Part shown: piece by piece, positions 26,535-54,431 of the stretch
How the letters are laid out: every line of letters begins with the position of its first letter
Position numbering within the stretch: the stretch's first letter is position 1
Assembly: GCA_945862215.1 (NCBI GenBank)
Contig: CAMAXY010000013.1
Span: 1-55,745, forward strand
Direction of reading: 5' to 3'
DNA from: Singulisphaera sp. GP187
Lineage (GTDB): Bacteria > Planctomycetota > Phycisphaerae > Phycisphaerales > SM1A02
DNA: 55,745 bases
Notes under the pieces: generated by a model
The model's database searches: none
What the model was told of the DNA's origin: nothing
Seen by the model: only the letters and a program-made list of their open reading frames with translations
Program-made: the position numbers and the translations under genes

Positions 26535-26551
26535 TACGAAAGGATGGGAAT

Positions 26552-28223: not shown

Positions 28224-29357
28224 ATGACACTCGACCGTTCATTGCAAGTTGATTTTCGTCACCGAGTGAGATTCACTGAAGATGTGTTTGCTCCTGACAA
28301 CGCAACGCTGGCGAGCGTTTGTTCTGATGGAATCCCGCGAAGAATGATTGCGTTTATCGATACTGGTGTTCACCAAGCTCGACCCGATATTGGAGAGAGA
28401 TTGGCGAATTATCTTGGAGCGCGTGGGAAAATCGGCGAGCCAGTTCCTGAACTCAAGATGATCGAAGTGGTCAGTGGTGGCGAAGAAGCAAAAAATTCAA
28501 ATGATGTATGCGAGCAAGTTATGGCCGCAGCAGATCGATATGGCATCGACCGCAAAAGCTTTGTCTTGGCGATTGGCGGAGGTGCAGTGCTTGATGCGGT
28601 TGGACTCGGCGCGACGCTTGCTCATCGCGGAGTAAGGCTCATTCGAATACCGACAACAACTCTGGCGATGGATGATGCCGCGATGGGTGTCAAGAACGGC
28701 ATCAATAAGTTTGGGAAGAAAAATTTCTGTGGGACTTTTTCGGTTCCGTGGGCAGTCATTGCTGACGAACAATTTCTGACAACGCTGACCGACCAACATT
28801 TTTTGTCTGGCTTCAGCGAAGCAGTCAAGATCGGATGTCTGAAAGATCCATCGCTGTTCGAACTGATCGAACAATCCGCTGCACGAATTGTTGCGCGTGA
28901 TCTTGTCGCAGCAATGCCGATTATTCGACGCAGTGCTGAATTGCACTTGGATCACATCACGCAAGGCGGAGACGCCTTCGAACTCAAAGAAGCTCGGCCG
29001 CTGGACTTTGGGCATTGGGCAGCGCACAAATTGGAATCGATGAGCACATACGAGATCGCTCATGGTGATGCTGTTGCGATTGGCATTGCACTTGACTGCG
29101 AATATGCGGTGCGAATGAAAATACTCTCTCAAAAAGATTCCACTCGCATCATCGCTTGCCTGCGAGCACTGCGACTTCCCACATGGCACCCCATGCTTTC
29201 ACATACTGATCAACTTCTGCGAGGACTCGAAGAGTTTCGAGAGCATCTTGGTGGCCGAATGAACATCACTCTTCTGCGGGCAATTGGGGAATCCACTGAA
29301 GTTCACCAAATGGATTCGGGCGTTGTTGCTGCATCGGCGAAGGCTCTTGCACCCTAG
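28224..29357 (+). CDS. eboD: EboD, 3-dehydroquinate synthase family protein
   Basis: A 377-residue sugar-phosphate-cyclase-fold protein. ATG 28224 is used because upstream sequence belongs to the terminator. It has the NAD-binding AIGGGAVLDAVGLGAT, the RIPTTTLAMDDAAMGVK loop and KNFCGTF, with metal ligands at Glu199 (GFSEAVKIG), His264 (DFGHWAAHKLE) and His280 (EIAHGDAVAIG). True AroB has a similar fold, but the neighbouring TatD-like, EboE, UbiA-like and phosphodiesterase genes identify it as the ebo-cluster paralogue. In cyanobacteria and other bacteria the ebo genes are linked to movement or processing of a secondary metabolite; the molecule here is unknown. Confidence 0.85.
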   Translation: MTLDRSLQVDFRHRVRFTEDVFAPDNATLASVCSDGIPRRMIAFIDTGVHQARPDIGERLANYLGARGKIGEPVPELKMIEVVSGGEEAKNSNDVCEQVMAAADRYGIDRKSFVLAIGGGAVLDAVGLGATLAHRGVRLIRIPTTTLAMDDAAMGVKNGINKFGKKNFCGTFSVPWAVIADEQFLTTLTDQHFLSGFSEAVKIGCLKDPSLFELIEQSAARIVARDLVAAMPIIRRSAELHLDHITQGGDAFELKEARPLDFGHWAAHKLESMSTYEIAHGDAVAIGIALDCEYAVRMKILSQKDSTRIIACLRALRLPTWHPMLSHTDQLLRGLEEFREHLGGRMNITLLRAIGESTEVHQMDSGVVAASAKALAP

Positions 29358-29360
29358 AAT
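29355..29360 (+). promoter_or_regulatory. Putative -10 box (TAGAAT) overlapping eboD stop
   Basis: TAGAAT, whose TAG is the eboD stop codon, ends 7 nt before ATG 29368. This could start a leaderless internal transcript for the downstream genes. No good -35 is seen. Confidence 0.35.
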
Positions 29361-29367
29361 CTGATTT

Positions 29368-29670
29368 ATGGCAACTTCTCTCACGACAAGCAAGATCGTG
29401 GACCAATATTTTTTAGAACACCGCGCAAAGGTGCTTGATATTGCAGCATTTCTTGATCGCTTTGATCGAGCTGCCGCTGCGGAGGGAGTTGCAGGATCCG
29501 CATCAACAACTGATGTGCGAGTGCGAGCATTGTGCGCTGCGCTTGATCTTCTGCGCGACGGACAGTCAGATCGCGCGCGACGCGCACTGGAATTGTGGAG
29601 CGATCATTCTGTAGAACCAGTTGCGAAAGCTGGAATGAAGGGTGCAATTGGCGCTGTGCCGCTTCCTTGA
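29368..29670 (+). CDS. Small helical protein between EboD and EboB
   Basis: A 100-residue, predicted mostly helical protein that I do not recognise. Notable stretches are [20 protein letters not shown] at the N-terminus and [20 protein letters not shown] followed by [16 protein letters not shown]. It has no signal peptide, membrane helix or cysteine motif. It lies 10 bp after EboD and 14 bp before EboB, so it belongs to the ebo unit. EboA is otherwise missing, but this protein is less than half the usual EboA length and I cannot align it to EboA. It may be a lineage-specific ebo component. Confidence 0.7.
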
Positions 29671-29684
29671 TATCGAGAAAAAAC

Positions 29685-30482
29685 ATGTACATCGATCCTC
29701 ATATTCATATGGTCTCGCGAACAACTGATGACTATCAGCGCATGGCGCTGGCGGGTTGCGTTGCGATCACCGAGCCAGCGTTCTGGGCGGGATACGACCG
29801 TTCGTGTGCGCAGGGTTTCATGGATTATTTTCGGCAGTTGACCGAGACCGAACCAAAGCGCGCAGCGCAATTTGGGATCCAACACCACACATGGCTTTGC
29901 ATTAATCCAAAGGAGAGTGAAGACATTGGTCTCGCGCGCGAAGTGCTTGCAGAGATCCCGAGTTTTCTTGATCAACCAAATGTGCTTGGGATAGGTGAAA
30001 TCGGACTGAACAAAAATTCTCGCAATGAGTTGATCGTGCTAGAGGAGCACATTGCACTTGCAAAAAGTCGCAACCTGCTGATCTTGGTGCACACTCCGCA
30101 CTTGGAAGACAAGATGAAAGGCACGCGAATGATTATGGATGCAATGAAAGATCATGGAGTCGATCCTGGTCGCGTGCTCATCGATCATGTTGAAGAGCAC
30201 ACCGTTCGACTCGTTCTTGATCGTGGATTCTGGGCGGGGATGACGCTCTATCCAGACACGAAGTGCACTCCGCAACGAGCAACCGATATCTTCGAAATGC
30301 ACGGAACAGATCGAATGTGGATCAACTCAGCCGCAGATTGGGGAATCAGCGATCCGCTCGCCGTGCCGAAGTGTCGCGACGAAATGCGCAGACGCGGTCA
30401 CTTGGACGCGATCATTCGCAAAGTCTCTTTCGACAATCCGCAAAAGTTTCTGTCGCAGTCTGGGCGATTTCGCGTGCAGTGA
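29685..30482 (+). CDS. eboB: EboB, TatD-like metal-dependent hydrolase
   Basis: A 265-residue amidohydrolase-fold protein of the TatD group. Start ATG 29685 puts the metal motif H6-x-H8 ([10 protein letters not shown]) at the N-terminus, as in TatD proteins. Further ligands are Glu in [10 protein letters not shown], His in VHTPHLEDK, His in IDHVEEH and Asp in [10 protein letters not shown]. The residues after the HxH ([14 protein letters not shown]) and the length match EboB-type proteins rather than housekeeping TatD DNases. Hydrolysis of a phosphoester or amide bond in the ebo metabolite is inference. The downstream ClpP-like gene starts within its stop codon (GTGA). Confidence 0.85.
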
Positions 30483-31483
30483 ATAAGCGTAATTTCATTT
30501 TCGCCGGCGCGGTATGTGCGGCATGTTCGCTTGCGGCATTCGGACAGACTGTTCCAAAGGGTGATGCGCCAGCAACGCCTACAAAATCTGAGGCGAAGCC
30601 AGCGGCGATCAAGACGGAAAGTTCGTCCAATCTTGTCGTTGTCATTCCACTTCAAGGGGTTGTTGGCCCAACACTTGATAATGATGAATGGTTCAGTGCA
30701 ACAGATTTTGAAAAAACTCTCAACAAGGCGGAAAAATTAAACCCAGCTGCAATCATTCTTGAGATCAACAGCGGCGGTGGACTTGTCGCTACCGAAGAAC
30801 GCATCATCCAAATGATCATTGATAGCCAAGGACGTGGAACTCGAATCGTTGCATGGGTGTTTGATGCTGGCAGCGCAGCTGCATTGATCACGCTTGCGTG
30901 TAAAGAGATATGCGTCATGCCTTCTGCACGAGTCGGCGCAGCCGTCACCATTGTCAGCGGTGAAAGTGGAACCGCATCATTAAAAAGCTTGACAGAAAAA
31001 GATCCAGAGCTTGCTGCAAAATATGAATCGTGGAAGAGTGCGATTCACAAATCTGCTGCTGAAGCAACTGGACGATCTCCCGCTATTGCTGATGCGATGC
31101 GAGATATGTCCAAAGAACTTTGGTGGTCGAGCGCAGGAGGATTTTCGGAAACCAGGCGCACAGAATCTGATGAACTTATTGATGGTCCAAAAACTGTCCT
31201 GACCCTGACAGCTGGAACAATGGAAAAAACTGGCCTTGCAAAGCAGAAAATTTCGCTCGACGACGTGATTCATTCGCTCGGAATGCGACGAAGCCCAGAG
31301 ATCAAAAAATTAAATTCTTACATGGAAATGAATCCAAAGAAATTTAAGAAGTTGCTGGGTGAAATTAAGAAACTCCGTCAAGCGGTGAATGACTCCAAGA
31401 CGAACTCAAGCAATAAGCGGCACTTCGCTGAAGAATTGACGAAGAAAATCCTCCAGGCAGAACAATTGCTCGGCGAGCTCTAA
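30479..31483 (+). CDS. Exported ClpP/crotonase-fold serine protease-like protein
   Basis: A 334-residue protein whose GTG start overlaps the EboB stop (GTGA); a signal peptide follows ([19 protein letters not shown]). Residues 51-150 look like the ClpP-like domain of NfeD/SppA-type membrane proteases: [22 protein letters not shown], and the nucleophile-type [13 protein letters not shown] with Ser132, then [10 protein letters not shown]. The C-terminal 170 residues are helical and end in a Lys-rich coiled coil. Unlike NfeD there is no C-terminal transmembrane/OB part. The overlap with eboB suggests coupled expression; no ebo role is known for such a protein. Confidence 0.75.
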
Positions 31484-31515
31484 TTCCAATCTACTCAATT
31501 CCCAATCCGCGGATC

Positions 31516-33069
31516 TCAACCACGCACTCCCAAATCGCGCATGACACGCACTGCGCAATTGTGCCCCGCAGCACCAATCACACTTCCCGCAGGATGGCAT
31601 CCCGCACTGCATGAATAAAGACCGTCGACTCCTGTTGCATACGGCATGCGGCGGTCAAATCCAAACGTGTTGTCGACATGATGAATGTGGCCATAGCGAA
31701 TGCCGATATCTTCTTCGATTCGCTTTGGTGTCAGTACATATGTATCGACAACCAAATCTCGAAATCCAGGACAGAACTGTTCTGCGATTCCAAAAATGTG
31801 ATCAACATATTTCGCTTCTTGATCCTTCCACGAAGTTCCCGCAAGTTCGTATGGCACCCACTGAACAAAGAATGCAGAATTATGATTTCCTTGCGGATCG
31901 CGAAGTGATGGATCGACTTGCGTGTGGATATACCACTCGAGTGTTGGACAATCCGCAAGTTCGCCCCGCATGACTTTTTCGAAACCCGCTTTGATTTCAC
32001 GAATGGGGTGATCGGATTGCGGAAGCAGATGCATCGTGCCATTGTGCTGCCCCCGATTTTCTGGAAGACATTTGAACTTTGGCAAGCCGCGCAACGCCAT
32101 ATTAATTTTCATCGTCGTCCCAGTGCGTTTGAAATTGTCGAGACGCGCATCGAGCGTGTCAGGCAAAACACCAGGGCCAACCATTTCGCGCAAACGAAAA
32201 GGATCCGCATTAGCAATGACGACTCTGGAATGAATCTCGCGATCATCCGCCAATACAACGCCGGTTGTTCGACCTTGGGTCGTGATGATTTTCGCAACAG
32301 ATGCACTGGTCAATATCGTGGCGCCGTGCGAACGCGCGGCATTCGCAAACGCATTGGCGACCGCACCCATACCACCCTTGGCGACCATCCATGTCCCATC
32401 TGCAGTGGGAAGCCGGCACATGTTGTGGACCAGAAAGTTCATTCCAGTTCCTGGCGTGCCGAATGAACCAGTCAAGCCAGAAAATCCATCGGTGACCGCG
32501 TACATCGCCACGAGCATCTCGCTCTTGAAGTCGAAGCGCGCTAAATAATCCTCAACCGTACCCGTGACAAGTTTCACAAAGACGTCCCGCAACTCTGGGC
32601 GAATATATTTTTCAGCCGTTGCCTCAACCGACACCGGCTCCGCAAGCCAACTCGGCGAGAGATCGTCACGAATGCGACCGATTTCGTCGGCAAGCGCGCC
32701 ATTTGCACGCCAATCTTGTTCGCTGAACATTGCCAAGAACTGTTCACGCATTGCTGACTGATCCGTGCCAAAAAGCAAATAACGACCATCAAGCATTGGC
32801 AGAAAATAATGCGGATTGCGGCGAATAAGCTCAAATTGAGCTCCAGTCCGCTGCATAATTTCCGGCGGCATCACGCCCAACAAGTACGAAGCCGTCGAAG
32901 TTCCCAACTGAGGTGCCTTTGGAAATGGATATTCGGTCTTGGTTGCTCCGCCGATCATTGCGCGCTCTTCCACAACCGTCACCTTCAGTCCTGACTTAGC
33001 CAAAATCGCAGCGGCGACCAACCCATTGTGACCTGCACCAACGATGATGACATCGGTTTGGATCGTCAT
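31516..33069 (-). CDS. FAD-dependent oxidoreductase, carotenoid desaturase/PYROXD2-like
   Basis: A 517-residue flavoprotein of the phytoene-desaturase/PYROXD2 superfamily. ATG at 33069 (reverse) places the dinucleotide motif directly at the N-terminus (VIIVGAGHNGLVAAAILA, VVEERAMIGGAT). A second FAD contact is at the C-terminus (GVDGLYSCSAGCHPAGSVIG). Substrate-domain residues (GMNFLVHNMCRLPTADG, GGMGAVANAFANAA) are typical of the non-carotenoid branch, so the substrate is unknown. It overlaps the upstream membrane-protein gene by 4 bp (ATGA) and converges with the ClpP-like gene, 32 bp apart. Confidence 0.88.
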   Translation of the reverse strand: MTIQTDVIIVGAGHNGLVAAAILAKSGLKVTVVEERAMIGGATKTEYPFPKAPQLGTSTASYLLGVMPPEIMQRTGAQFELIRRNPHYFLPMLDGRYLLFGTDQSAMREQFLAMFSEQDWRANGALADEIGRIRDDLSPSWLAEPVSVEATAEKYIRPELRDVFVKLVTGTVEDYLARFDFKSEMLVAMYAVTDGFSGLTGSFGTPGTGMNFLVHNMCRLPTADGTWMVAKGGMGAVANAFANAARSHGATILTSASVAKIITTQGRTTGVVLADDREIHSRVVIANADPFRLREMVGPGVLPDTLDARLDNFKRTGTTMKINMALRGLPKFKCLPENRGQHNGTMHLLPQSDHPIREIKAGFEKVMRGELADCPTLEWYIHTQVDPSLRDPQGNHNSAFFVQWVPYELAGTSWKDQEAKYVDHIFGIAEQFCPGFRDLVVDTYVLTPKRIEEDIGIRYGHIHHVDNTFGFDRRMPYATGVDGLYSCSAGCHPAGSVIGAAGHNCAVRVMRDLGVRG

Positions 33070-33551
33070 GGCGAACTTTGATTCAAGCGACCCTTTCGCC
33101 GATTGAGATGCCGAGTTCCCGCAACAACTCCCACAACTCCAAGTGACATCGAAGAAACCGCAAGCCACAGAGGTGGGCGCGCATATTTTCCTGTCATCGA
33201 CCAATCAGTCAGCGCCATCGTCGGCGGGCGCGGTGGGGGATTTAAATCTATCGCTCGATTTTTATCGATAACAATTTGGAGCGATCCAAATACCAAGATC
33301 GCCACAGCAAGTCCATAACCTGACGCGCTTCTACCTCCCCACCATGCGGCAGTAAATCCTCCGAAGAATGCGCAGATAACACTGAGGACTAGAGCGAAAA
33401 CATTCCACGTATTAGATGTCACCCACGAGTCTGCAACAAAGACCTGATCGGCTCCCAATAGAAATGCACCAAGCGTCATTCCAATCGAGACCATCAAGGC
33501 AACTGCCACATAACCAAGCACGACTCCAAACAAGATTCTGAAAAATTTCAT
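33066..33551 (-). CDS. Four-helix membrane protein of unknown function
   Basis: A 161-residue protein with four predicted transmembrane helices (about residues 5-35, 48-70, 74-94 and 128-146) and a Pro-rich loop (LNPPPRPPTMALTDWSM) between helices 3 and 4. No catalytic motif is seen. Its stop overlaps the oxidoreductase start, so the two form an operon. A TAAAGT hexamer sits exactly 6 nt before its ATG, suggesting a leaderless transcript. Confidence 0.75.
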   Translation of the reverse strand: MKFFRILFGVVLGYVAVALMVSIGMTLGAFLLGADQVFVADSWVTSNTWNVFALVLSVICAFFGGFTAAWWGGRSASGYGLAVAILVFGSLQIVIDKNRAIDLNPPPRPPTMALTDWSMTGKYARPPLWLAVSSMSLGVVGVVAGTRHLNRRKGRLNQSSP

Positions 33552-33557
33552 TTCATC

Positions 33558-33563
33558 ACTTTA
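33558..33563 (-). promoter_or_regulatory. Putative -10 box (TAAAGT) 6 nt before membrane-protein start
   Basis: On the reverse strand TAAAGT is followed by GATGAA and then ATG (33551). It has the same geometry as the other candidate leaderless starts; no clear -35. Confidence 0.4.
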
Positions 33564-33658
33564 CATTGTCGCAAACGAATCTACGCTCGACTCCCCGTGC
33601 GATATGGATGTCGCGCGAATATCTCTCGGACAATTCATTACTTGCAAGGACGCTTCTC

Positions 33659-34432
33659 ATGAATGATTCATTCGTAAATCGTATTCCCCCGCTCATCAAA
33701 AATTTCGGATTTGGCATGTTCTGCCTCGGCGCAACTCTTGCGCTCGGCGTCGTGCTCTCATCACAGTCGATCGGCAACGCGATTGTGCGTATCAAAATGC
33801 AGGACGCGCCCATTCAAGTGAAGGGTGTCGCAGAAATTGAGGTCGTTTCAGATCGTGCGACATGGCGTGGAACGGTTCGTGCCCGTGCAAAAACACTTTC
33901 GCAAGCATTTGAGATTCTCGAAACGGGTACGAACAAATTGCGAGCGATGCTCGTGGCGCACGAATTCAAAGCGGAGGAAATCAATGCGTGCGAAGTTGAT
34001 ACAACAATTGTCTTCGCTAAGAATTCAAAGGCAGAAAATACGAATGTGATCGAGTCATATGTCTTGTCGCAAGGCACAACAGTTCGAACAATGAATGTCG
34101 TGTCAGTTCGCGACCTGGCGTTTCGCGCTACCGATTTGATCAAAGAAGGTGTCGAAATTGATTCGGGTGCACCCTCGTACTACGTCAGCGTCCTTGAGTC
34201 AATCAAGCTGACTCTACTAGAAAAAGCTACGGAAAATGGTTACGAACGCGCTTCGCTTCTTGCGCGAGGATCGAAAAGCGAAGTAGGAGGTTTGATAAGT
34301 GCATCGCAGGGAGTTTTTCAGATTGTTCCTGTTGGTTCAACTGATATCAGCGATTATGGTGTGAGCGATACATCGACAATCAACAAGACGGTCAAAGCCG
34401 TTGTTACTCTTGCGTATCAAATTGAACAATAG
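33659..34432 (+). CDS. SIMPL-domain (DUF541) exported protein
   Basis: A 257-residue protein. ATG 33659 is chosen because AAGGA lies about 10 nt upstream; longer in-frame openings run to 33566. After an N-terminal membrane segment (FGFGMFCLGATLALGVVLSS) comes a SIMPL domain, starting with IQVKGVAEIEVVSDRATW and containing two beta-alpha modules (LSQAFEILETGTNKLRAML; LAFRATDLIKEGVEI). This is the usual form of periplasmic DUF541 proteins, of poorly known function and often linked to envelope stress. It is divergent from the membrane-protein gene. Confidence 0.85.
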   Translation: MNDSFVNRIPPLIKNFGFGMFCLGATLALGVVLSSQSIGNAIVRIKMQDAPIQVKGVAEIEVVSDRATWRGTVRARAKTLSQAFEILETGTNKLRAMLVAHEFKAEEINACEVDTTIVFAKNSKAENTNVIESYVLSQGTTVRTMNVVSVRDLAFRATDLIKEGVEIDSGAPSYYVSVLESIKLTLLEKATENGYERASLLARGSKSEVGGLISASQGVFQIVPVGSTDISDYGVSDTSTINKTVKAVVTLAYQIEQ

Positions 34433-34458
34433 ATCAGCTTGATTTCAATGGTTCGCCA

Positions 34459-34464: not shown

Positions 34465-34470
34465 TTGTTC

Positions 34471-37266
34471 ATGCGAACTGGACGAATCACGCTTCTATCA
34501 GCCTTCTTTTTGATCGCCTGCGAAAAGGGTTCAGAAACGCCAGTCGCCCCTGCTCCTGTGGCGGCCGCCACCGCTTCTGCGATCCAGCGCGCAGGCGATC
34601 TTCTTTTTGCAAGATCGAATTGTGTTGAGTGTCATTCTGCTGATGCATCTGTTGCCAACCGCACTGGCTCGCTTGACGCACCGAAACTCGATCGAATTGG
34701 ATCGCGCGCGAGTTCGAGTTGGATTTCAAACTATCTCTCCGCACCCGCGCATACAGGTTCAACTGGAATGCGAATGCCAAACCTCTTGCATGGAATGGGT
34801 TCAGATGCAAATGCGAAAACTGTTCGACAGCTGACCGCATATCTTTCTTCGCTGCAAACTGGATCGACTTCGACTCCTTTTTTGACAACTCGTCCATCTC
34901 AAATTTCAGCTGGTGAAAAACTTTGGTTGTCGGTGGGATGCACCGCATGTCATCCAGCCGCCCCAAGCGATGATTGGTTGGGTGCAAAGTGGAATGCGAG
35001 CGAGCTTGTTTCTTTTTTAAAAAATCCGACATCCGTTTGGCCATCTGGACAAATGCCAAAGACGAATTTATCCGATGAAGAAACGCAAGCACTGGCATCT
35101 TGGCTCTTACGTAGCCAAGGACAACGCGCAGATGGATCGAGCGCGCTGACCAAGGCCCCTGGAATCACGGTTGATTATTTCGAAGGTGCATTTGAAGGTG
35201 TTGGACCAAATGCAAATGATGTTCCAACGCGATCTGGAATCATTGATCAAGTTGGTCTTCCTTCGTTTGCGCGTGATGATGCGTGGGGTGCGCGATACAA
35301 AGCGACGCTGACAATTCCAACCGATGGATCGTGGACTCTCTGGCTTGGAAGCGATGATGGATCATCGCTTTCAATTGATGGCAATGTGCTCGTTGAAAAT
35401 CCTGGTGTCCATGGACCCGATTGGAAAAAAGGGACATTGACGCTTACGGCTGGCCCTCACGAAATTCTCGTTACGTACTTTCAGGGAGCGGGGAATGCCG
35501 GCCTTCGCGTCGATTGGAGTGGGCCAAATCAAGATCGACGGCAAATTCCTGCGAGTGCGTATACGCGCGAAGCAATCGAACTGCGCCCGCCTGTTGCCGA
35601 TCACACAGAATTTACGAAAGCTGATATTGCGCAAGGCCGCGAACTCTTTATACAAGTTGGATGCGTGCAGTGTCACGGTTCTCCTGAAGTCGCGCTCTCG
35701 GCCGAAACTGCCGCACCAAAGATTTATACGCCACTTGAAAACCTAGATCCTTCGCGTGGTTGCTTGGCGAACGATCCGCCACTTGCTGCGCCGGATTATA
35801 AATTCACAGCAAGCGAACGTGATGCACTTCGAGCGCTCGTCGCAAATGCCAAGTCGCTTCTCGCCCCGCTTCCTCCAGAGGAATCTCTAGCGCTTCACTT
35901 GCTTGCACTCAATTGCACTGGATGTCATTCTCGCCAAGATGTTGGACAGCCGACAACAGAATCGATGGCGCTCTTTGCGGGAACTGCGGACCTCGGCGAG
36001 CAAGGTCGCGTTCCACCAACTCTCAATAATGCTGGAGCGAAATTGCGTACGAGTGCAATAACCGAGATTCTCGCTGGAAATGGCAGTGTTCGACCATATG
36101 TTCTCACTCGGATGCCACTCTTTGGCGCGGCATCAAGCAAGCCATTTCCCGCCCTTCTTGCCGCCGCCGATCACGCGCCCCGCGAAGAAGTTGATTCTGT
36201 CATCACCGATGAAATAGTTGAGGCTGGAACTCGACTGGCGGGACTCGATGGACTTGCATGCATTTCATGTCACGGAATTTCTGGTTATCCATCACTGGGC
36301 GTGCCCGCGATCGATCTTTCATACACCTACGCACGACTGCGCCATTCCTGGTTTGAAAAGTACATGCGAAATCCAGCAGCGATTTATCCTGGAACGCGTA
36401 TGCCAACATTCTGGCAAGCGGGGCAACGCATTCAGCCTGAAGTGTGCGCAGGCGATCCAACCAAGCAAATTGATGCACTCTGGACTTATTTGTCGCTGGG
36501 ATCTTCGATGCCATTGCCAAAGGGCATGGTTGCGGGCAACGAATTTGACTTGATGCCACAGGAACGACCGATTGTGCTTGGAACTTTTATGAATGGACTT
36601 TCTGCACGCTGCTTCGCCGTTGGATTTCCAGAGCAAGTCCACTTTGTCTATGACGGCGACCATCGTCGCACCGCCAAAGCCTGGCGCGGAAAGTTCATGG
36701 ACGCTGCAGGAACTTGGTTTGGTCGCGCAGGACTCTTGTGCGAACCTGCGGGCATCGATGTGATTGACTTTGCACTGGGAGATGCGGTTGCAATCTTGCC
36801 AAACTCCCAAGCGAATTGGCCCGAAAAATCTGGGCGCGATGCAGGCTGGCGTTTCTTGGGAAGTGACCGAGATTCGGCTGGCGTTCCAACCTTTCGCACC
36901 GCAGACAACACTCTATATATAGAGGAGCGCATCGCCCCCGCCCCGGCTATCGGCGGAGCACATCTTGTTCGAGAATTCATAATCCGTGCAAAAAATGAGC
37001 CGATGGGTGTGAACATTCGGGCTTGGACCGCACCAGAGATTGAGAGGATCGCTGGCGCAAGCAATGCGGGTACAGCTGTTCAAAATAGTTGGAAGGCTCA
37101 AAGCGGTCCAACAATTTTTGTGACGGGTGGTCCAGCTTTCGTACGGGCAGTTGATACGAGTGACCAAACAAGCGCAAGTGAATTACTTGTGCCTGTTGGA
37201 TTTCGAACTGGTTCAGATCCCGAGCGTCCATATGAGGCGCGCATTCGTTTGGAGTATGCCTGGTGA
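34471..37266 (+). CDS. Multihaem cytochrome c lipoprotein with PA14 domain
   Basis: A 931-residue lipoprotein (lipobox LIAC at the end of the signal sequence). Five CxxCH haem sites are visible, at Cys51 (CVECH), Cys157 (CTACH), Cys398 (CVQCH), Cys482 (CTGCH) and Cys597 (CISCH). A PA14-like carbohydrate-binding domain lies at about residues 230-370 (WTLWLGSDDGSSLSIDG ... HEILVTYFQGAG), splitting the cytochrome part. The C-terminal 280 residues have no haem site. This architecture is typical of planctomycete envelope dehydrogenase systems. Its stop overlaps the start of the propeller protein gene (GTGA), so they probably form one complex: a propeller oxidase handing electrons to the cytochrome. 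Confidence 0.88.
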   Translation: MRTGRITLLSAFFLIACEKGSETPVAPAPVAAATASAIQRAGDLLFARSNCVECHSADASVANRTGSLDAPKLDRIGSRASSSWISNYLSAPAHTGSTGMRMPNLLHGMGSDANAKTVRQLTAYLSSLQTGSTSTPFLTTRPSQISAGEKLWLSVGCTACHPAAPSDDWLGAKWNASELVSFLKNPTSVWPSGQMPKTNLSDEETQALASWLLRSQGQRADGSSALTKAPGITVDYFEGAFEGVGPNANDVPTRSGIIDQVGLPSFARDDAWGARYKATLTIPTDGSWTLWLGSDDGSSLSIDGNVLVENPGVHGPDWKKGTLTLTAGPHEILVTYFQGAGNAGLRVDWSGPNQDRRQIPASAYTREAIELRPPVADHTEFTKADIAQGRELFIQVGCVQCHGSPEVALSAETAAPKIYTPLENLDPSRGCLANDPPLAAPDYKFTASERDALRALVANAKSLLAPLPPEESLALHLLALNCTGCHSRQDVGQPTTESMALFAGTADLGEQGRVPPTLNNAGAKLRTSAITEILAGNGSVRPYVLTRMPLFGAASSKPFPALLAAADHAPREEVDSVITDEIVEAGTRLAGLDGLACISCHGISGYPSLGVPAIDLSYTYARLRHSWFEKYMRNPAAIYPGTRMPTFWQAGQRIQPEVCAGDPTKQIDALWTYLSLGSSMPLPKGMVAGNEFDLMPQERPIVLGTFMNGLSARCFAVGFPEQVHFVYDGDHRRTAKAWRGKFMDAAGTWFGRAGLLCEPAGIDVIDFALGDAVAILPNSQANWPEKSGRDAGWRFLGSDRDSAGVPTFRTADNTLYIEERIAPAPAIGGAHLVREFIIRAKNEPMGVNIRAWTAPEIERIAGASNAGTAVQNSWKAQSGPTIFVTGGPAFVRAVDTSDQTSASELLVPVGFRTGSDPERPYEARIRLEYAW

Positions 37267-38885
37267 AAAAAATTCGAACTCACATTTTGTTTTTATTGAC
37301 TCTCGTGTCTTTGTCACTCACGCCAACACTTCGCGCTCAAGATGAGCCAAAGACCACAGAAAAAAAGATGGACATTATTCCAGCAAGATTTCCAAAGCGT
37401 GAAGCGCAATATTGGAAAATCGAAACGATTCCAGTTCCCAAAGGAATCGTCGCTGAAGTCACTGGCATTCTTCCGATGGACGGCGATCAAATCATGGTCA
37501 GTACACGCCACGGCGAAGTATGGTTGATCGCTGGTGCATCGACTGCCGATCCAAAGTGGTCTCTCTTTGTTGATGGCTTGCAGGAACCGCTTGGTCTGAC
37601 GCTGAAGTTCACGGACAAAAATAATAGTGTCAGTGATGGTTGGCTTTACATCACCCAGCGTGGAGAACTTTCACGTATGCGCGACGCGAACAATGATGAT
37701 CGTGCAGATCAAATCGAGACGATCTGTGATGCGTGGAGTATCTCCGGCAACTATCACGAGTACACCTTCGGTCCGGTCTTTGATGACGATGGAAATGCGT
37801 GGGTCACACTCAATCGTCCCTTTGGATCTCAACCTTTCGGTGCACCTGCGTGGCGCGGATGGACACTCAAGATTTCTCCCGATGGGTCGTTCACTCCCAT
37901 CGCGGCGGGATTGCGCTCACCGTGTGGGATCGCGCGCAGTCCAAGCGGCGAATTTTTCTACAGCGATAATCAAGGAGAGTGGTGTCCGACGAATAAACTT
38001 TCTGTGCTCGAAGAAGGAAGTTGGCATGGGCACCCCTTTGGAATTCTTGACACATTCAATCCAAAATCCAAGGTTGCATATCCAGTGCCAACAACAGATG
38101 GAACGCCTGACACACTTGGCGCGCAGAGACCAACAAAAAACGAAAATACTCCAAATGATTATCCAGATGGAAAGCGCATCATCGAAGCGCAGAAACAAAT
38201 GCCAACGCTTGTCTTGCCTGCGGTGTGGTTTCCATATGACAAAATGGGCCGAAGTGCAGGGCAATTCGTGTGGGACACAACCAACGGAAAATTCGGACCC
38301 TTTGCGGATCAAATCATCATCTGTGATCAATATTCTGCGTGCCTCATGCGAGTTGATCTGGAAAAAGTCGGCGGTCAATGGCAAGGTGCATGCTTTCCAT
38401 TTCGTAGTGGATTTGATTGCGGAATCATTCGACTTGCCTGGGACAAAGATGGATCGCTGCTCTGCGGCGAAACGAATCGTGGATGGGCTTCGCTTGGCGA
38501 ATCAACGCAAGGACTTCAGCGCATGCGTTGGAGTGGAGAAACTCCATTCGAGATCTTGCGAATGCGTGCGCGCCCCGCGGGCTTTCATTTGGAATTCACA
38601 GAGCCAGTCGATCGCGCAACAGCGATGAATCCAGATTCATATCGGATGAGTTCGTACACATATCTGCTGCACGCGCCATACGGAAGTCCAGAAGTTGATA
38701 CAGAAAAACTTGTCGTACGCCCACTCTCTGTCAGCGATGATGGACGAACTGTGGAACTCGCCGTCGATGGAATGCGCGATGGTTTCGTTCACGAACTTCA
38801 CGCAGATGGAATTCGCAGTGCGAAGGCGGAGATTTTGCTTCACTCGGATGCGTATTACACACTCAACGCGCGACCAGTGGAATAA
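37263..38885 (+). CDS. Exported sorbosone-dehydrogenase-like beta-propeller protein
   Basis: A 540-residue secreted protein with a signal peptide (HILFLLTLVSLSLTPTLRAQ). Residues about 50-430 form a beta-propeller of the soluble glucose/L-sorbosone dehydrogenase kind (VEVTGILPMDGDQIMVSTR-type blade; ADQIETICDAW; GIARSPSGEFFYSDNQGEW). A short beta domain follows (RPAGFHLEFTEPVDRATAMN). Such proteins are common partners of planctomycete multihaem cytochromes. The GTG start overlaps the cytochrome stop by 4 bp. The likely role is oxidation of a sugar or polyol in the periplasm; the cofactor (PQQ or none) is not evident. It converges with the DUF3500 gene, 3 bp away. Confidence 0.82.
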   Translation: MKKIRTHILFLLTLVSLSLTPTLRAQDEPKTTEKKMDIIPARFPKREAQYWKIETIPVPKGIVAEVTGILPMDGDQIMVSTRHGEVWLIAGASTADPKWSLFVDGLQEPLGLTLKFTDKNNSVSDGWLYITQRGELSRMRDANNDDRADQIETICDAWSISGNYHEYTFGPVFDDDGNAWVTLNRPFGSQPFGAPAWRGWTLKISPDGSFTPIAAGLRSPCGIARSPSGEFFYSDNQGEWCPTNKLSVLEEGSWHGHPFGILDTFNPKSKVAYPVPTTDGTPDTLGAQRPTKNENTPNDYPDGKRIIEAQKQMPTLVLPAVWFPYDKMGRSAGQFVWDTTNGKFGPFADQIIICDQYSACLMRVDLEKVGGQWQGACFPFRSGFDCGIIRLAWDKDGSLLCGETNRGWASLGESTQGLQRMRWSGETPFEILRMRARPAGFHLEFTEPVDRATAMNPDSYRMSSYTYLLHAPYGSPEVDTEKLVVRPLSVSDDGRTVELAVDGMRDGFVHELHADGIRSAKAEILLHSDAYYTLNARPVE

Positions 38886-38888
38886 AAA

Positions 38889-39935
38889 CTATTTTGTTGC
38901 GGAAGCTGGTGTGGCGACTGGCACGGCTGTGGGAACTGGCGAAGGCGCATGCGAATGATTGCTCTCTTGCAAATGAGCGCGCAAAATATTTGTAGCAAAA
39001 TCATTTGCTGGATCACGCCAAATTGTGTGGACATGATCCGCAGTTCCACTTGTGCAATCAAATTCGATAATCGTTGTTGGTCCTTGAAGTCGGTAATAGT
39101 GCGGCTTTGTTTCATCGTCAGCGCCAATCCAAGCAAAATGCATCTGTTCGATGCCAGCGTCAGTGATGCGTTTCATTTCTGCATCGGCGAAATCGCCACG
39201 GAGTCGATCAGCGAATACTCGAAGTAATGCCGACCCACGCTGCTGTTGATCGACAGTCATGTCGGCAAATGTGATTCCCATCGGCGAATCCATCTTCGCA
39301 GTTGCTGGATTTGCGATGATGTCCGCTGGAACATTCGTCCCAAGAATCGCTTTTGCTTTTTGTTCTGGTGTCAGCGACCGCAACAGAGCAAATGCAAGAT
39401 CTCGCTCCTCTGCGAGTGGCCGATCCCCTGCTCGCGCTCCACTGGGAACTTGAAATGGCGCAGAGCCCATAAACATTGGCGTCACGACAAACGCATTTAT
39501 TGGCGCCGTAAAATTGAGAGAAAGGTGGTGACCTTCCAAACGAAATCCCCACAAATTTCGCCCACTTAGCGTTCCAAAAATAGCCAACTTGTACGCACCT
39601 TCGTTATATCGCTCAGGCTGGCTCTTGCCCAAGAACGCTTCGAGTGCACAGATACCCTCGACCTTTGCGATTCCCTTCGTGGAAAGCACCGAACGTAGCA
39701 GCGCATCCAAATCCAACCGCGAATCTTCATCAAGCTCGTCCAGTCTCACCCCGAATCGCTCGCCTGGAAGATAATTCCACGCAGTCCGCCGAGGATCGTC
39801 GAATTCTGTACACCCGCTTTGCCGCTCGGCTTGAGAGAAACCGTCGACCAACTTTACCGCTGCATTCTGTGTGACTGCAGCCGCCCCAGCAGGCGCCGCG
39901 GATTGCAGCATGAGGACGATTCCCAAAGCAAGCAT
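38889..39935 (-). CDS. DUF3500-family exported protein
   Basis: A 348-residue protein with a signal peptide (LALGIVLMLQSAAPAGAAA). The family core is visible: WGFRLEGHHLSLNFTAPINA, TPMFMGSAPFQVPSG, AEERDLAFALLRSLTPEQ and the C-terminal HYYRLQGPTTIIEFDC...DHVHTIWRDPANDFA. DUF3500 proteins are of unknown function. The C-terminus is an Ala/Pro/Val tail. It is transcribed divergently from the amidotransferase gene; only 20 bp lie between the two start codons, with overlapping -10 boxes. Confidence 0.85.
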   Translation of the reverse strand: MLALGIVLMLQSAAPAGAAAVTQNAAVKLVDGFSQAERQSGCTEFDDPRRTAWNYLPGERFGVRLDELDEDSRLDLDALLRSVLSTKGIAKVEGICALEAFLGKSQPERYNEGAYKLAIFGTLSGRNLWGFRLEGHHLSLNFTAPINAFVVTPMFMGSAPFQVPSGARAGDRPLAEERDLAFALLRSLTPEQKAKAILGTNVPADIIANPATAKMDSPMGITFADMTVDQQQRGSALLRVFADRLRGDFADAEMKRITDAGIEQMHFAWIGADDETKPHYYRLQGPTTIIEFDCTSGTADHVHTIWRDPANDFATNILRAHLQESNHSHAPSPVPTAVPVATPASATK

Positions 39936-39941
39936 CCTTCG

Positions 39942-39949
39942 ATCATAAT
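39942..39949. promoter_or_regulatory. Overlapping divergent -10 boxes between DUF3500 and amidotransferase genes
   Basis: On the plus strand CATAAT (39944-39949) is followed by 6 nt and ATG 39956. On the minus strand TATGAT (39947-39942) is followed by 6 nt and the ATG at 39935. The two hexamers share 4 bp, so only one RNA polymerase could be bound at a time. Both transcripts would be leaderless. Confidence 0.45.
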
Positions 39950-39955
39950 GTGTCT

Positions 39956-40642
39956 ATGACGAATCCAATCATTGGCTTGACCGCAAATCTTGTACGTGAC
40001 GACAAGGGTCGACTTCGACATGAGGTCAAGGGAACGTATATCGATGCTGTCTTACGCGTGGGAGGTACGCCAATCATGCTGCCGGCAATCGCCAGTTTGC
40101 GCGCCGCGATGATTGATGTTGTTGATGGCATCATCATGACTGGTGGCGATGACATCGACACTCGGCCATTTGGTGTTGCAATGCACCCAAAGTCAGAAAT
40201 TATGGAAAGCGATCGACAAGCTGCAGAATTTGCGCTGCTTGATGCATTGAAGATGCGACCAGAAAAGCCAGTCCTAGGCATTTGTCTCGGTATGCAGATG
40301 ATGGGAGTTCATGCAGGATGCCCAATCATCCAACATCTTCATGATCTGAAACCTGATGCAGATCGACACAAATTTGATAATCCACACTTGGTCGAAAGCG
40401 AAATCGGTTGCGGTCCCGTTGCAAGTTGGCATCATCAAGCGCTCGAAGATTGTGGACCATTCGAGGCAATCGGATGGAGTGACGATGGCGTACTCGAAGC
40501 GATTCGAGATTCGAGCAAACCTTTTTATCTTGGTGTGCAGTGGCACCCAGAAAGAACGAAGGACCCAATTATGGGAGATGCGATCATCGCGCGATTGATC
40601 GAAGCAGCCCGCGCACATAAGTTGACGACGCTTATCCGATGA
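39956..40642 (+). CDS. Class-I glutamine amidotransferase-like hydrolase (peptidase C26)
   Basis: A 228-residue PuuD-type gamma-glutamyl hydrolase/amidotransferase. It has the GGDDIDTRPFG motif, the nucleophile elbow GICLGMQMMG with the catalytic Cys, and the His-x-Glu pair in VQWHPERTKDP. ATG 39956 is preferred (CATAAT 6 nt upstream); GTG 39950 is the alternative. Its stop overlaps the eboE ATG (ATGA), and it heads the eboE-eboC-eboF operon. It may cleave a gamma-glutamyl amide in the ebo-linked pathway, or act in unrelated polyamine catabolism; the first is inference from coupling. Confidence 0.85.
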   Translation: MTNPIIGLTANLVRDDKGRLRHEVKGTYIDAVLRVGGTPIMLPAIASLRAAMIDVVDGIIMTGGDDIDTRPFGVAMHPKSEIMESDRQAAEFALLDALKMRPEKPVLGICLGMQMMGVHAGCPIIQHLHDLKPDADRHKFDNPHLVESEIGCGPVASWHHQALEDCGPFEAIGWSDDGVLEAIRDSSKPFYLGVQWHPERTKDPIMGDAIIARLIEAARAHKLTTLIR

Positions 40643-41814
40643 ATCCATTTGTTCTTGGTTACTGCACAAATGTGCACAGCGGCACCACGCTTGCCACAAC
40701 GCTCGAAGCACTCGATCGTCATGCAACGGCTGTTCGTCAATTCGTAAAACCAATTGGACTGATGCCGATTGGATTGTGGCTCAGCGCGCGCGCCGCGCAA
40801 GAAGTTGTCGATGATCCTGATGGAATTGCACGATTGCGAGATTGGCTTTTCAATCGCGGGCTTGTTGTCTTCACGATGAATGGATTTCCATACGGCGATT
40901 TTCACGCGGGCAGAGGTAAGAAAGCCGTCTATGAACCGCACTGGGCCGATGTGCGCCGCGCGCTATACACCATCTCACTCGCAGACATTCTTGCAGGACT
41001 TCTGCCTGATGTGACAATCGCTCCAGACATCGCAGGTGAAGGCTCGATCTCGACATTGCCGCTTGGATGGAGATCGACATTCACACAAGAAGGATGCGGC
41101 GCGAGTGTCGGCTTGGCATCTGCGCAATTAGAACAAGTCGCGCGACACTTAAAGAGGATTGAAGATTCAACTGGCGTGTGCATCCATCTCGACCTCGAAC
41201 CAGAACCAGGATGCGTGATCGACCGTGCGAAACAGATGGTCGATTTCTTTGATCAGTGCATTCGTCCAAGTGCTGCTCTCCAAGATCCGCGCAGATATCT
41301 GCGCGTCTGCCACGACATCTGTCACAGTGCTGTGATGTTTGAGCCGCAGGTAGAGGCGCTTGAAACATATCGACGTGGTGGAGTGCGAATCGGCAAAGTG
41401 CAGGTTTCGAGTGCGATCACATGTGACGGATCAGAGCGCGCCTTCCGAGCACTTCGCGCCTTCGACGAACCAAAGTTTCTACATCAAACGTGTGTCCTCG
41501 ATGGAGCAGGCGAAGTGCATTTCTTTGATGATCTTGAACGTGCCTTTGATGAAGCGCCAAATGGCGTCTGGCGGGTTCACTTTCATGTTCCAGTCGATAC
41601 AGAATTTCTCGGGCCACTCGGCACAACCCGCCGTGAAATTGCTGAGTTCCTCGCTGCGGTCAAGCCCGAAGATGGCATCCGACATTACGAGGTCGAAACA
41701 TACGCATGGAATGTTCTGCCAATGAACCTTCGCCGCGACAGTTTGGCGCGTGGTATTGCCGATGAACTGATCTGGACACGCGCTCAGATGATTGCTCACG
41801 GAATGCACAAATGA
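40639..41814 (+). CDS. eboE: EboE, TIM-barrel metabolite traffic protein
   Basis: A 391-residue xylose-isomerase-like TIM-barrel protein. The start YCTNVHSGTTLATTLEALDR, the VVFTMNGFPYGDFH segment, DILAGLLPDVT with GEGSISTLPLGWR, and the later HLDLEPEPGC and CHDICHSAVMFE motifs match EboE proteins. In characterised ebo clusters it is needed for export or maturation of a secondary metabolite (for example the scytonemin monomer in cyanobacteria). It overlaps both neighbours by 4 bp, so it is tightly coupled to the amidotransferase and EboC genes. Confidence 0.88.
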   Translation: MNPFVLGYCTNVHSGTTLATTLEALDRHATAVRQFVKPIGLMPIGLWLSARAAQEVVDDPDGIARLRDWLFNRGLVVFTMNGFPYGDFHAGRGKKAVYEPHWADVRRALYTISLADILAGLLPDVTIAPDIAGEGSISTLPLGWRSTFTQEGCGASVGLASAQLEQVARHLKRIEDSTGVCIHLDLEPEPGCVIDRAKQMVDFFDQCIRPSAALQDPRRYLRVCHDICHSAVMFEPQVEALETYRRGGVRIGKVQVSSAITCDGSERAFRALRAFDEPKFLHQTCVLDGAGEVHFFDDLERAFDEAPNGVWRVHFHVPVDTEFLGPLGTTRREIAEFLAAVKPEDGIRHYEVETYAWNVLPMNLRRDSLARGIADELIWTRAQMIAHGMHK

Positions 41815-43208
41815 CCCTTCTCCAAAAAAACTCTGCAGTTCGTGACTGGCTCGACCTTGCACGCATCTCCAACTTGCCAACGATCGTGACTGATTCGCTG
41901 GTTGGAATTGCGATTGGTCTCTCAATGGAAACTGCCGCAGCGACGGCATTCACCTTTCAGGGCGCCACCATCGCGGTCATTTTTGGCATGTGTGCTTTTT
42001 ATACCGCAGGCATGGTTCTCAACGGCATCGTCGATCGCGATGTTGACGCAATCGAGCGCCCGAATCGCCCGATCGCTGCCGGCCGAATTCGTTTGCCATG
42101 GGCGTGGACTGCGTTCATTGTTCTCATGCTGCTCGGATTTTTCTTACGGCCCACATTCGCTGCGACTCCGATCCCCGTCGCGGTCGCAGCGCTCATCGGG
42201 ATCTGGCTCCTGGCCTATGCCCATTCAACGCGATCGTTCATGCTGCAAAGGCTGGCCAAAATTTGGTGTGTCATTTCAGTCATCGCGGCACTTTGGTGGG
42301 CTGTCGACATGATGATCAAGGATCCATTCGACCTGACTGCTTCTGGATTCGATCCCAGTACCAAGGAGTCCATCCGGATCGGACACTTTGCGCTGAATGC
42401 GCCTGTTCTTCTTATCGCGCTTTCACTCATTGCATACAACCTGCTTCACAAACGCACTGCCTTTGCGATTGGCTTTCTTGCGCTCTGTCGATTTCTTGTT
42501 CCGATCGCGGTTGCGATGTCGATCTTGGAACCAAGTGGAACAGTGGGAAGGATTTGGACAAGCAGTCGCTTTGTACCAATACTCATTGGGAGTTCGCTCA
42601 TTCTGTTCCTCCCTCCACTCATGATTGCGATTCACACAATCATGCTTTCGATCGTTGCTCGCCAAGAGATGTCAAGCGAAGGAGCTGAATATCGCTGCAG
42701 TCGTTGTGCGTATCCGCTGAAAACGATCGCCCCAAAAGTTTGCCCTGAATGCGGATGCAGCCTGACTCAAGTACCACCTATAGGCGATCGCCCTCTCTCG
42801 AAACGCATGCGTCGTGCTTCGCCGTTTCTTGCTGCGATAGCGATCACGCCAGCATTGCTGATGCTCATTCAACAAATTTACTCCATCAGTTTCTTGAAAT
42901 CATTTCCGATTCTTAGTGTGTCCGTACTTTCTGGATACATGACATTGCCATATTGGGTGGTGACATCAGCCACTCTTTTTCTTGCAATACTTTTTTCAAT
43001 CTGGTTCATCATTGCCGCAACGCGCGCGTTTCGTGCTGCTGTGTCGCATCCATCTCGCCGGCCAGCTGGAATCGCCGCTCTTATTGCCGCACTCGCACTG
43101 CTTGACGCCGTAAGCGCCGCAATGTTGCAAGCGACGTTCATAAGTATTGCATGCATTTTTCTTTGGTTCTTCACGCGCTGGCTTCAGCGCCGCATTGCTG
43201 GAAGCTGA
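41811..43208 (+). CDS. eboC: EboC-like UbiA prenyltransferase fused to zinc-ribbon/membrane module
   Basis: A 465-residue membrane protein. Residues 1-290 resemble UbiA-family prenyltransferases with about eight helices, the first Asp-rich motif (NGIVDRDVDAIERPNRPIAA) and a reduced second motif (YAHSTRSFMLQRLAKIW). Residues about 288-318 form a four-cysteine zinc ribbon (CSRCAYPL ... CPECGCS). About 335-460 add four more helices. EboC proteins are normally only the UbiA part, so this is a fusion in the planctomycete zinc-ribbon style. It overlaps eboE by 4 bp. It may prenylate or move a lipophilic substrate; the added module is of unknown role. Confidence 0.82.
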   Translation: MTLLQKNSAVRDWLDLARISNLPTIVTDSLVGIAIGLSMETAAATAFTFQGATIAVIFGMCAFYTAGMVLNGIVDRDVDAIERPNRPIAAGRIRLPWAWTAFIVLMLLGFFLRPTFAATPIPVAVAALIGIWLLAYAHSTRSFMLQRLAKIWCVISVIAALWWAVDMMIKDPFDLTASGFDPSTKESIRIGHFALNAPVLLIALSLIAYNLLHKRTAFAIGFLALCRFLVPIAVAMSILEPSGTVGRIWTSSRFVPILIGSSLILFLPPLMIAIHTIMLSIVARQEMSSEGAEYRCSRCAYPLKTIAPKVCPECGCSLTQVPPIGDRPLSKRMRRASPFLAAIAITPALLMLIQQIYSISFLKSFPILSVSVLSGYMTLPYWVVTSATLFLAILFSIWFIIAATRAFRAAVSHPSRRPAGIAALIAALALLDAVSAAMLQATFISIACIFLWFFTRWLQRRIAGS

Positions 43209-43239
43209 ATAACCCGCGCCCGTCAGTTTGCTTTGCAAC

Positions 43240-43245
43240 TAAACT
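43240..43245 (+). promoter_or_regulatory. Putative -10 box (TAAACT) 6 nt before eboF GTG
   Basis: TAAACT is followed by TCTCAA and then GTG 43252. It supports this GTG as the true start and suggests an extra leaderless transcript inside the operon. No good -35. Confidence 0.4.
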
Positions 43246-43251
43246 TCTCAA

Positions 43252-44637
43252 GTGCCACAACGTCTTGCACTACTCAATTTCGTCGGGCTGACGCCAAATC
43301 TATTGGGAGATGCGACGCCAAACCTTGTTGATTTCGCGAGACGCTGTGGCGGCATTCGATCGCTTATTCCAGATCTGCCTGCGGTGACATGCACGGTGCA
43401 ATCGAGCATATTGACTGGCACGACCCCTGCGCATCACGGCATCGTTGGCAATGGATGGTTCGATCGCACGCAGAATGAAGTGCAATTCTGGAAGCAGTCG
43501 AGTGCGCTCGTGGGCGGCGAACGCATTTGGGATTTCGCACGCAAGCGCGATCCATCGGTGACAACTGCGAATCTTTTTTGGTGGAATGCGATGTACTCAA
43601 CCGCAGACATCACAGTCACGCCGAGGCCGATCTACTGCGCCGACGGTCGCAAACTTCCCGATGTCTGGACAAACCCATCCAATTGGCGCGACGAACTTCG
43701 CAGCGAGATCGGCGACTTTCCGCTCTTTCATTTCTGGGGACCCGCCGCAGATATTCAATCGACTGATTGGATCGCACGCGCCACAATGATGACTGTTGCG
43801 AAGTTCGATCCGACACTCACGCTTGTCTATCTGCCTCACCTGGATTATGCCCTTCAAAAATTTGGTCCGGCTGACCCGCGCATTCGCAGTGAATTGCGCG
43901 AGATCGATGGAGTTTTTGCGGCGCTCTTGAAATTCTTCGACGACCGTGGCATTCGTGTGAGTGTGATCAGTGAATACGGCATTTCTCCCGTTGCGGGTGC
44001 GGTGCATCTCAACCGAGTGCTTCGCGATGCTGGATTCTTGACTCTGCGCAACGAACTCGGCCGCGAGATGCTCGATGCTGGTGCGTCGCGCGCATTTGCT
44101 GTGTGCGATCATCAGGTTGCGCACATCTATGTTGCGCACGAACGCGACCGCAGCGAAGTTCAACGCATTCTTCAAGCGACTGCTGGAGTCGAAATGGTTC
44201 TCGACGCGCAAGGCAAACACGCTGCGGGTCTTGATCATCCACGCGCTGGAGATCTTGTTGCAATCAGCACAGCGGATCGCTGGTTCGCATATCCATGGTG
44301 GCATGATGATGCGCGCGCGCCAGACTTCGCGCGCACCGTCGACATTCACCGCAAGCCTGGATACGACCCATGTGAACTTTTTCTTGATCCGAAAATTCGA
44401 TTTGCCAAAGGTCGTATTGCATGGCGACTTTTTCAGCGCAAGCTTGGTATGCGCGTGCTCCTTGATGTCATTCCACTCGACGCATCACTTGTGCGTGGAT
44501 CGCACGGTCGAGTCGAAATGGCTCATGCGCGCAGACCGCTGATGATGGTGGATGATGGCGACAATGATGATCTAGAAGTCCGCGCCTGCGATGTCATGCC
44601 GTTTCTCATGCGTCAGATCTTTGGTCGAGATGGGTGA
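43252..44637 (+). CDS. eboF: EboF, nucleotide pyrophosphatase/phosphodiesterase-like protein
   Basis: A 461-residue alkaline-phosphatase-superfamily protein of the NPP type. It begins with a core beta strand (RLALLNFVGLTPNLLGDATP), and the nucleophile region is LPAVTCTVQSSILTGTTPAHHG. Metal-binding residues are seen at LPHLDYALQKFGP and VISEYGISPVAGAVHL, and near DLVAISTADRWFAYPWWHDD. There is no signal peptide. It is the last gene of the amidotransferase-EboE-EboC unit (43-bp gap). It is expected to hydrolyse a phosphodiester or pyrophosphate in the ebo metabolite; this is known only by analogy. Its 3' end is overlapped by a degraded gene on the other strand. Confidence 0.85.
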   Translation: MPQRLALLNFVGLTPNLLGDATPNLVDFARRCGGIRSLIPDLPAVTCTVQSSILTGTTPAHHGIVGNGWFDRTQNEVQFWKQSSALVGGERIWDFARKRDPSVTTANLFWWNAMYSTADITVTPRPIYCADGRKLPDVWTNPSNWRDELRSEIGDFPLFHFWGPAADIQSTDWIARATMMTVAKFDPTLTLVYLPHLDYALQKFGPADPRIRSELREIDGVFAALLKFFDDRGIRVSVISEYGISPVAGAVHLNRVLRDAGFLTLRNELGREMLDAGASRAFAVCDHQVAHIYVAHERDRSEVQRILQATAGVEMVLDAQGKHAAGLDHPRAGDLVAISTADRWFAYPWWHDDARAPDFARTVDIHRKPGYDPCELFLDPKIRFAKGRIAWRLFQRKLGMRVLLDVIPLDASLVRGSHGRVEMAHARRPLMMVDDGDNDDLEVRACDVMPFLMRQIFGRDG

Positions 44638-53847: not shown

Positions 53848-53859
53848 AAAGACACTGCG

Positions 53860-54375: not shown

Positions 54376-54431
54376 AAGTACAAGTCCACCAGAGTCGGCG
54401 CATTGCGGCGAACGAGTGTCAAGATATGGAG

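Follow-up and report, generated by a model that had tools for sequence, protein, structure and literature searches.

The window analyzed here is a stretch of 55,745 nucleotides from the planctomycete Singulisphaera sp. GP187 (assembly GCA_945862215.1, contig CAMAXY010000013.1, our contig C13), the genome of which comprises 2.79 Mb and is 93.5% complete. It carries a complete set of six ebo genes, arranged as eboD-eboG-eboB and, further downstream, eboE-eboC-eboF (Table 1). The genes do not form a contiguous six-gene operon: 10.16 kb with eight genes separate the end of eboB (30482) from the start of eboE (40639). A sequence-only reading of the window had proposed a split ebo cluster with EboD and EboB at 28224-30482 and EboE, EboC and EboF at 40639-44637. 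The genes are present at these places, and the split set proved genuine when judged by family models and by the AroB-like and TatD controls of the same genome; the distance of about 8.5 kb given between the halves was too short. We consider it likely, with respect to both the identity of the genes and the history of the opening, that an EboG-type ebo set, compact in its ancestral state, was opened between eboB and eboE in the clade of the window. The gene in front of eboE encodes a C26 class-I amidotransferase/peptidase (hereafter the C26 gene). Overlaps of 4 bases were observed between the C26 gene and eboE and between eboE and eboC, which suggests that the three genes are translationally coupled.

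Table 1. The split ebo locus and its neighboring genes, with the evidence for each assignment (positions are those of the window).
Gene or product	Position	Strand	Evidence
HtrA/DegP-like protease, not an ebo gene	26510..28099	+	TIGR02037, 431.6 bits (cut-off 416.2)
eboD, sugar phosphate cyclase	28224..29357	+	NF004852, 470 bits (cut-off 333)
eboG, small protein of 100 aa, replaces eboA	29368..29670	+	ORF, position, profile
eboB, TatD-like metal-dependent hydrolase, starts MYIDPHIH	29685..30482	+	58% to Deinococcus EboB
NfeD1b/SppA-like, insert gene	30482..31483	+	PF25145, 51.7 bits (cut-off 40)
CrtO/phytoene-desaturase-like FAD oxidoreductase, insert gene	31516..33204	-	NF045689, 156.6 bits (below cut-off 1000)
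Small membrane-like protein, recurrent insert gene	33066..33551	-	Also in L055, L092, L138, L148, L156
SIMPL (DUF541), insert gene	33566..34432	+	PF04402, 61.8 bits
Cytochrome c with PA14-like domain, insert gene	34465..37266	+	PF00034, PF13442, PF07691
Propeller-like protein, insert gene	37263..38885	+	PF23500, 21.8 bits (below cut-off 27)
DUF3500 protein, insert gene, recurrent near eboE	38889..39935	-	PF12006, 266 bits
C26 class-I amidotransferase/peptidase, constant insert gene	39950..40642	+	PF07722, 125.9 bits
eboE, TIM-barrel protein	40639..41814	+	NF035939, 398.7 bits (cut-off 250)
eboC, UbiA-type prenyltransferase with inserted zinc ribbon	41811..43208	+	PF01040, 45.9 bits (cut-off 34.2)
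eboF, type I phosphodiesterase/nucleotide pyrophosphatase family	43252..44637	+	PF01663, 197.7 bits

The sequence-only reading could not identify EboA, and no EboA match was obtained in the genome of the window at E<=1, an absence that is not absolute at this level of genome completeness. A small gene at 29368-29670 had been overlooked, however. This open reading frame (ORF), located 10 bases after eboD and 14 bases before eboB, is, as judged from sequence comparison, EboG, the substitute of EboA. An EboG ORF was found between eboD and eboB in all 28 loci that hold both genes and had been retrieved via other ebo genes, not via EboG (49-97% identity). Two Deinococcus plasmids (L074, L075) have a hypothetical gene at the same place (D-hyp-B-E-C-F), and the profile of the window's EboG family matched both Deinococcus proteins (90.5 and 76.4 bits; hhalign 99.5%). 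According to the study of Yurchenko et al. (2016), EboG is a mutually exclusive substitute of EboA, Deinococcus included, and the order of the ebo genes varies (PMC5133447). No relationship between EboG and two EboA proteins was detectable (hhalign 0.1%), and no family was returned for the window EboG by the NCBIfam and Pfam scans. Residues R19, D24, A26, A27, L29, D30, R31, R34, D49, R51, R69, S78, D79, A93, and G95 are invariant in 50 EboG sequences; the predicted model consists of three helices (mean pLDDT 82.6), and none of the 3 chains compared with it gave a structural match. The distance between EboG and EboB is at most 400 bp in 102 of 106 loci with EboG, a count that is biased because 80 of the 126 loci of our profile survey (7 duplicates set aside) had been found with EboG itself; these 80 are mostly from Planctomycetota, Phycisphaerales and similar groups. 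A protein without Pfam or NCBIfam match has become easy to recognize, and the apparent gap in planctomycete ebo sets is filled by EboG instead of EboA.

The other five proteins were compared with family models and with paralogs in the same genome. The window EboD scores 207 bits with the AroB model TIGR01357, under its cut-off of 305, and a separate AroB-like gene on contig C5 of the genome scores 291.5 bits, itself under that cut-off. EboD is nearer to the EboD of Ketogulonicigenium and Deinococcus than to its own AroB-like protein (45.5% identity to Ketogulonicigenium EboD vs. 35.7% over 207 aa). The similarity of EboB to TatD is weak (30.6 bits), and a separate TatD gene of 219 bits is located on contig C40. 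The motif residues of EboB are common to the four EboB proteins compared and are presumably metal ligands. These sequence measures set EboD and EboB apart from housekeeping AroB and TatD, a grouping that the sequence-only reading had singled out as the point to look at. Its call for a model search was borne out in part: EboD and EboE exceed their cut-offs, and the family match makes the identity of EboE certain, whereas EboC stays under the cut-off of NF035940 and no EboF-specific match came from the NCBIfam scan. EboF belongs to the type I phosphodiesterase family and adjoins eboC; its orthologs follow eboC in the compact relatives.

The label EboC is given because of the UbiA domain, the position after eboE and the kept motif residues. 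Y64, N71, D75, and D79, all invariant in the EboC alignment, are present in the window protein. The second position of the motif NDxxDxxxD is occupied by G at 72; D is found there in 54 of 71 EboC rows, and G or A in 16 (13 of the window's genus, L138, L056, and L057), while the remaining row (L104) had been misread. A zinc ribbon (CxxC...CPEC) is inserted in the window EboC, in most EboC proteins of the genus and in some of other loci; the pattern was not found in EboC of L034 and L037 of the genus. We think that the window EboC probably still prenylates. Two tandem EboC genes (502 and 355 bits) were seen in another genome (G004, L051:8745-11632).

Comparison of gene order indicated how the split may have arisen. 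The order D-G-B-E-C together with eboF, on one strand and without the C26 gene, is found in 34 distinct loci of the 126 surveyed. Sixty-eight loci span eboB and eboE; in 47 (41 distinct) no more than 471 bp lie between the two genes, and in 21 more than 1.2 kb. The C26 gene is present in 20 of the 21 opened loci, the exception being the Ketogulonicigenium locus (L076), which has another gene order. With a further opened locus that holds the C26 gene (L163, genome G218), the clade of the window comes to 21 of 21 joint-spanning loci with this gene. Its absence from all 41 compact loci is no evidence alone, because gaps of up to 471 bp are too short for a C26 gene of 690 bp. In a tree of D, G, B, and E proteins from 67 loci, the loci with the C26 gene form one clade (SH-like support 0.93) next to the compact loci L103, L113, and L127. 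The best C26 homolog of compact genomes is on another contig in 14 of 16 (37-46% identity), with none in G028 and G045, and a homolog is also present in all six genomes of the 'f2' group without ebo matches. Within the genus the gene accompanies EboE in all 15 genomes with EboE and is absent from the four without it (G001, G007, G015, G018), a co-absence that could reflect a lost contig because the two genes are neighbors.

Two further cases illustrate the variety of arrangements. A Gemmatirosa plasmid (L078), whose record has no annotation, carries an EboG-type set in another order, with eboE on the strand opposite G-B-F, and two copies of the D-B pair (G014:C58 and G014:C93) occur in one genome listed with 4% contamination.

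The tree and the linkage are consistent with the following history. The ancestral operon would have been compact, D-G-B-E-C-F, as in the relatives and in Deinococcus. In the clade of the window it would have opened between eboB and eboE, probably once, with the arrival upstream of eboE of a C26 gene, putatively the one that has other locations in further genomes of the order. Two co-oriented halves would have resulted, D-G-B, often preceded by htrA, and C26-E-C-F, with a slot between them that appears to gain and lose lineage-specific genes (exporter, FAD oxidoreductase, cytochrome, propeller, DUF3500). The HtrA/DegP-like gene is a frequent upstream neighbor of eboD, also in the compact loci L064, L103, L113, and L127.

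Several observations weigh against this account. The support for the clade with the C26 gene fell to 0.765 after 17 loci were added (84 in total), and the trees were built from ebo proteins, not from species. The clade has 39 tips, of which 32 have the C26 gene; none is shown in L092, L095, L120, L156, G001, G007, and G015, mostly contig ends unless the gene has been lost. Outside the clade, eboB and eboE are 2.75 kb apart in G053 and 149 kb apart in G057, both without a C26 match, and the G-B pair lies apart from D-E-C, with D and E adjacent, in G048 (L071) and G240 (L166, L165). The joint may thus simply be breakable, and its opening does not have to be due to the C26 gene. The E-C-F half varies as well, since eboF is sometimes detached: in G005 no eboF was seen in the 3.5 kb that follow eboC, and in G016 none in the 2.7 kb that follow it. 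EboC of the window scores 62.2 bits with NF035940, for which the cut-off is 250. Finally, the synonymous divergence (dS) between the window and related species is mosaic, with 1.41 for eboD and 0.07 for eboF against G008 (L040, L041), and 0.17 for the cytochrome and 0.67 for eboE against G016 (L043), which points to homologous recombination between species and may blur the history. The cluster has thus been opened on more than one occasion; a single event probably accounts for the opening that involves the C26 gene.

The sequence-only reading had left it undecided whether the intervening genes are cargo of the same pathway or a later insertion, and asked whether they are always there. The gap does appear to be a later opening of a compact operon; its contents are not constant. 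In the opened clade only the C26 gene is (21 of 21), whereas the genes for FAD oxidoreductase, SIMPL, cytochrome/propeller, and DUF3500 are present in some loci and missing from others. It is unlikely that the intervening genes are working parts of the ebo pathway, for example for periplasmic oxidation of an exported product as by ScyE for scytonemin. The small membrane protein, cytochrome and propeller do follow eboB in the same order in another genus (L055, L156), the ratio of nonsynonymous to synonymous divergence (dN/dS) of the insert genes is 0.06-0.23, the N-termini of cytochrome and propeller look signal-like by eye, and a gene of the ScyD/ScyE type is present in an ebo locus of Streptomyces. 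However, for each insert gene there are species of the genus that lack it although their ebo genes are intact: L034-L037 are without cytochrome, propeller, and DUF3500, and L033 and L052 without FAD oxidoreductase and DUF3500. The propeller scores 12.3 bits with ScyE_fam (cut-off 80). As the insert subsets differ within the genus, we regard them as lineage additions and not as fixed pathway parts. The NfeD1b/SppA-like gene was found in the window and its closest species (L038, L040, L043, L044, L054, and as a fragment in L173); the FAD oxidoreductase and SIMPL genes were seen only in the genus; and DUF3500, small membrane protein, cytochrome, and propeller recur outside it. The DUF3500 gene adjoins eboE or lies close to it in at least two lineages (L055, L116, L125, L134, L142, and L150, besides the window).

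An EmrB-type (DHA2) exporter gene follows eboB on the same strand in eight loci (L057, L058, L060, L092, L107, L120, L129, L148) and in L163; three of these proteins score 244-262 bits with TIGR00711 (cut-off 230). In L060 (G033) eboB is away from the rest of the cluster, and the exporter gene is still behind it. Of 19 genomes of the genus, 18 have an unlinked homolog of the exporter, including G018, which is without the five ebo genes searched; this speaks against an ebo role.

The exporter also figures in a different view of the cluster, to which we give a low probability: ebo may consist of two separable modules. One would be D-G-B, which could function by itself and is sometimes linked to a dedicated EmrB-type exporter; the other would be a dispensable membrane part made up of E-C-F and the C26 enzyme. 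Genome G015 (L053; 95% complete) has kept D-G-B, followed after eboB by 6.7 kb of other genes, and has no EboE, EboC, EboF, or C26 match. In four genomes of a sister family (G040, G044, G052, G056) EboD and EboB were found with no EboE over the cut-off and no EboC match, and EboF-like matches were of about 40%. Two genomes of the genus (G001, L173; G007, L174) have D-G-B without E, C, F, or C26 match; their contigs break off directly after eboB or inside the insert genes, and what is missing may therefore be due to lost contigs. If the modules are real, the ebo proteins would make a molecule rather than form an exporter.

A single recent insertion of a mobile element with unrelated cargo is improbable as the origin of the split. 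The genes between eboB and eboE look unrelated to ebo, and integrase-like IS3-type frames occur at 53.4-55.3 kb of the window and near D-G-B of G015; yet several genera have the slot open, with differing contents and the C26 gene always there, the insert genes lie on both strands, and no integrase was recognized among the larger ORFs of the slot, although no dedicated search was made. That EboD and EboB are housekeeping AroB and TatD, wide superfamilies to which they do belong, with E-C-F nearby by accident, is hardly credible in view of the separate AroB-like and TatD genes, the closeness to known EboD, and the compact order common to 34 loci.

An ebo set opened between its halves could still be functional. 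Against two to five species, dN/dS of the window genes was 0.003-0.053 for eboB, 0.018-0.068 for eboE, 0.045-0.108 for eboG, 0.074-0.157 for eboD, 0.112-0.298 for eboC, and 0.115-0.116 for eboF. All six genes are thus under purifying selection, and both halves are probably in use.

It has been shown in Nostoc that deletion of eboA, B, C, E, or F confines the scytonemin monomer to the cytoplasm (PMC6282210). A homolog of EboC farnesylates 8-hydroxyquinoline-2-carboxylic acid (PMC9235831), and EboD has been placed in a distinct branch of sugar phosphate cyclases, possibly acting on sedoheptulose 7-phosphate (PMC5133447). Based on this family knowledge we tentatively suggest a scheme that has somewhat less than an even chance of being right as a whole. 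EboD would cyclize a sugar phosphate, probably sedoheptulose 7-phosphate, and in the membrane EboC would attach a prenyl group to the product; EboB, EboE, and EboF may contribute hydrolase, isomerase-like, and phosphodiesterase steps, and EboG could be a small helical protein that partners another, most likely EboB. The product, once prenylated, might serve small-molecule export or surface placement. The present findings bear on the question of whether ebo proteins synthesize a prenylated metabolite (proposed in 2016) or move one across the membrane (proposed in 2018).

The sequence-only reading described the ebo metabolite as known only in a few bacteria, a rarity that does not extend to the genes: EboE is over its cut-off in 135 of 195 Planctomycetota genomes, and EboG is present in at least 40 of them, a lower bound since no more than 26 initial candidates were scored for each genome. 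In all 10 single-contig genomes with EboG and EboE over the cut-off, the two are more than 470 kb apart. This agrees with three planctomycetes without ebo clustering mentioned in the 2016 report (PMC5133447), and makes the window an intermediate between compact and dispersed ebo operons; the survey also names genomes that possibly keep one half. Other Planctomycetota with dispersed ebo genes share the phylum and the widespread EboE with the window and differ in the distance between EboG and EboE.

The closest known system is the EboG-type operon of Deinococcus (PMC5133447), which has the same six genes in the order of the window's compact relatives (D-G-B-E-C-F) and a homologous EboG. In contrast, the window has eight genes between B and E, and its EboC contains a zinc ribbon and G at 72. 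The eboABCDEF clusters of Bacteroidetes, Cyanobacteria, and eustigmatophyte plastids have the EboB, EboC, EboD, EboE, and EboF families in common with the window; these are of the EboA type, whereas the window has EboG and no detected EboA. The prenyltransferase Ubi-297 (PMC9235831) is a member of the EboC family with tyrosine for the usual arginine, and Y64 is found in the window EboC, which differs from it by G at 72 and by the zinc-ribbon insertion. No literature on planctomycete ebo genes was found beyond PMC5133447, in a coverage from which subscription journals are mostly missing. The system is known; within that coverage we found no report of EboG in the present group, of the C26 gene at the opened joint, or of the exporter linkage.

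Two other features of the window were recorded. The integrase-like frames of IS3 appearance lie on the minus strand at 53441-55301, and a similar one is near the D-G-B genes of L053 (G015). At the other end, positions 12-2602 hold three adjacent enoyl-CoA hydratase-like genes, as judged from ORF reading.

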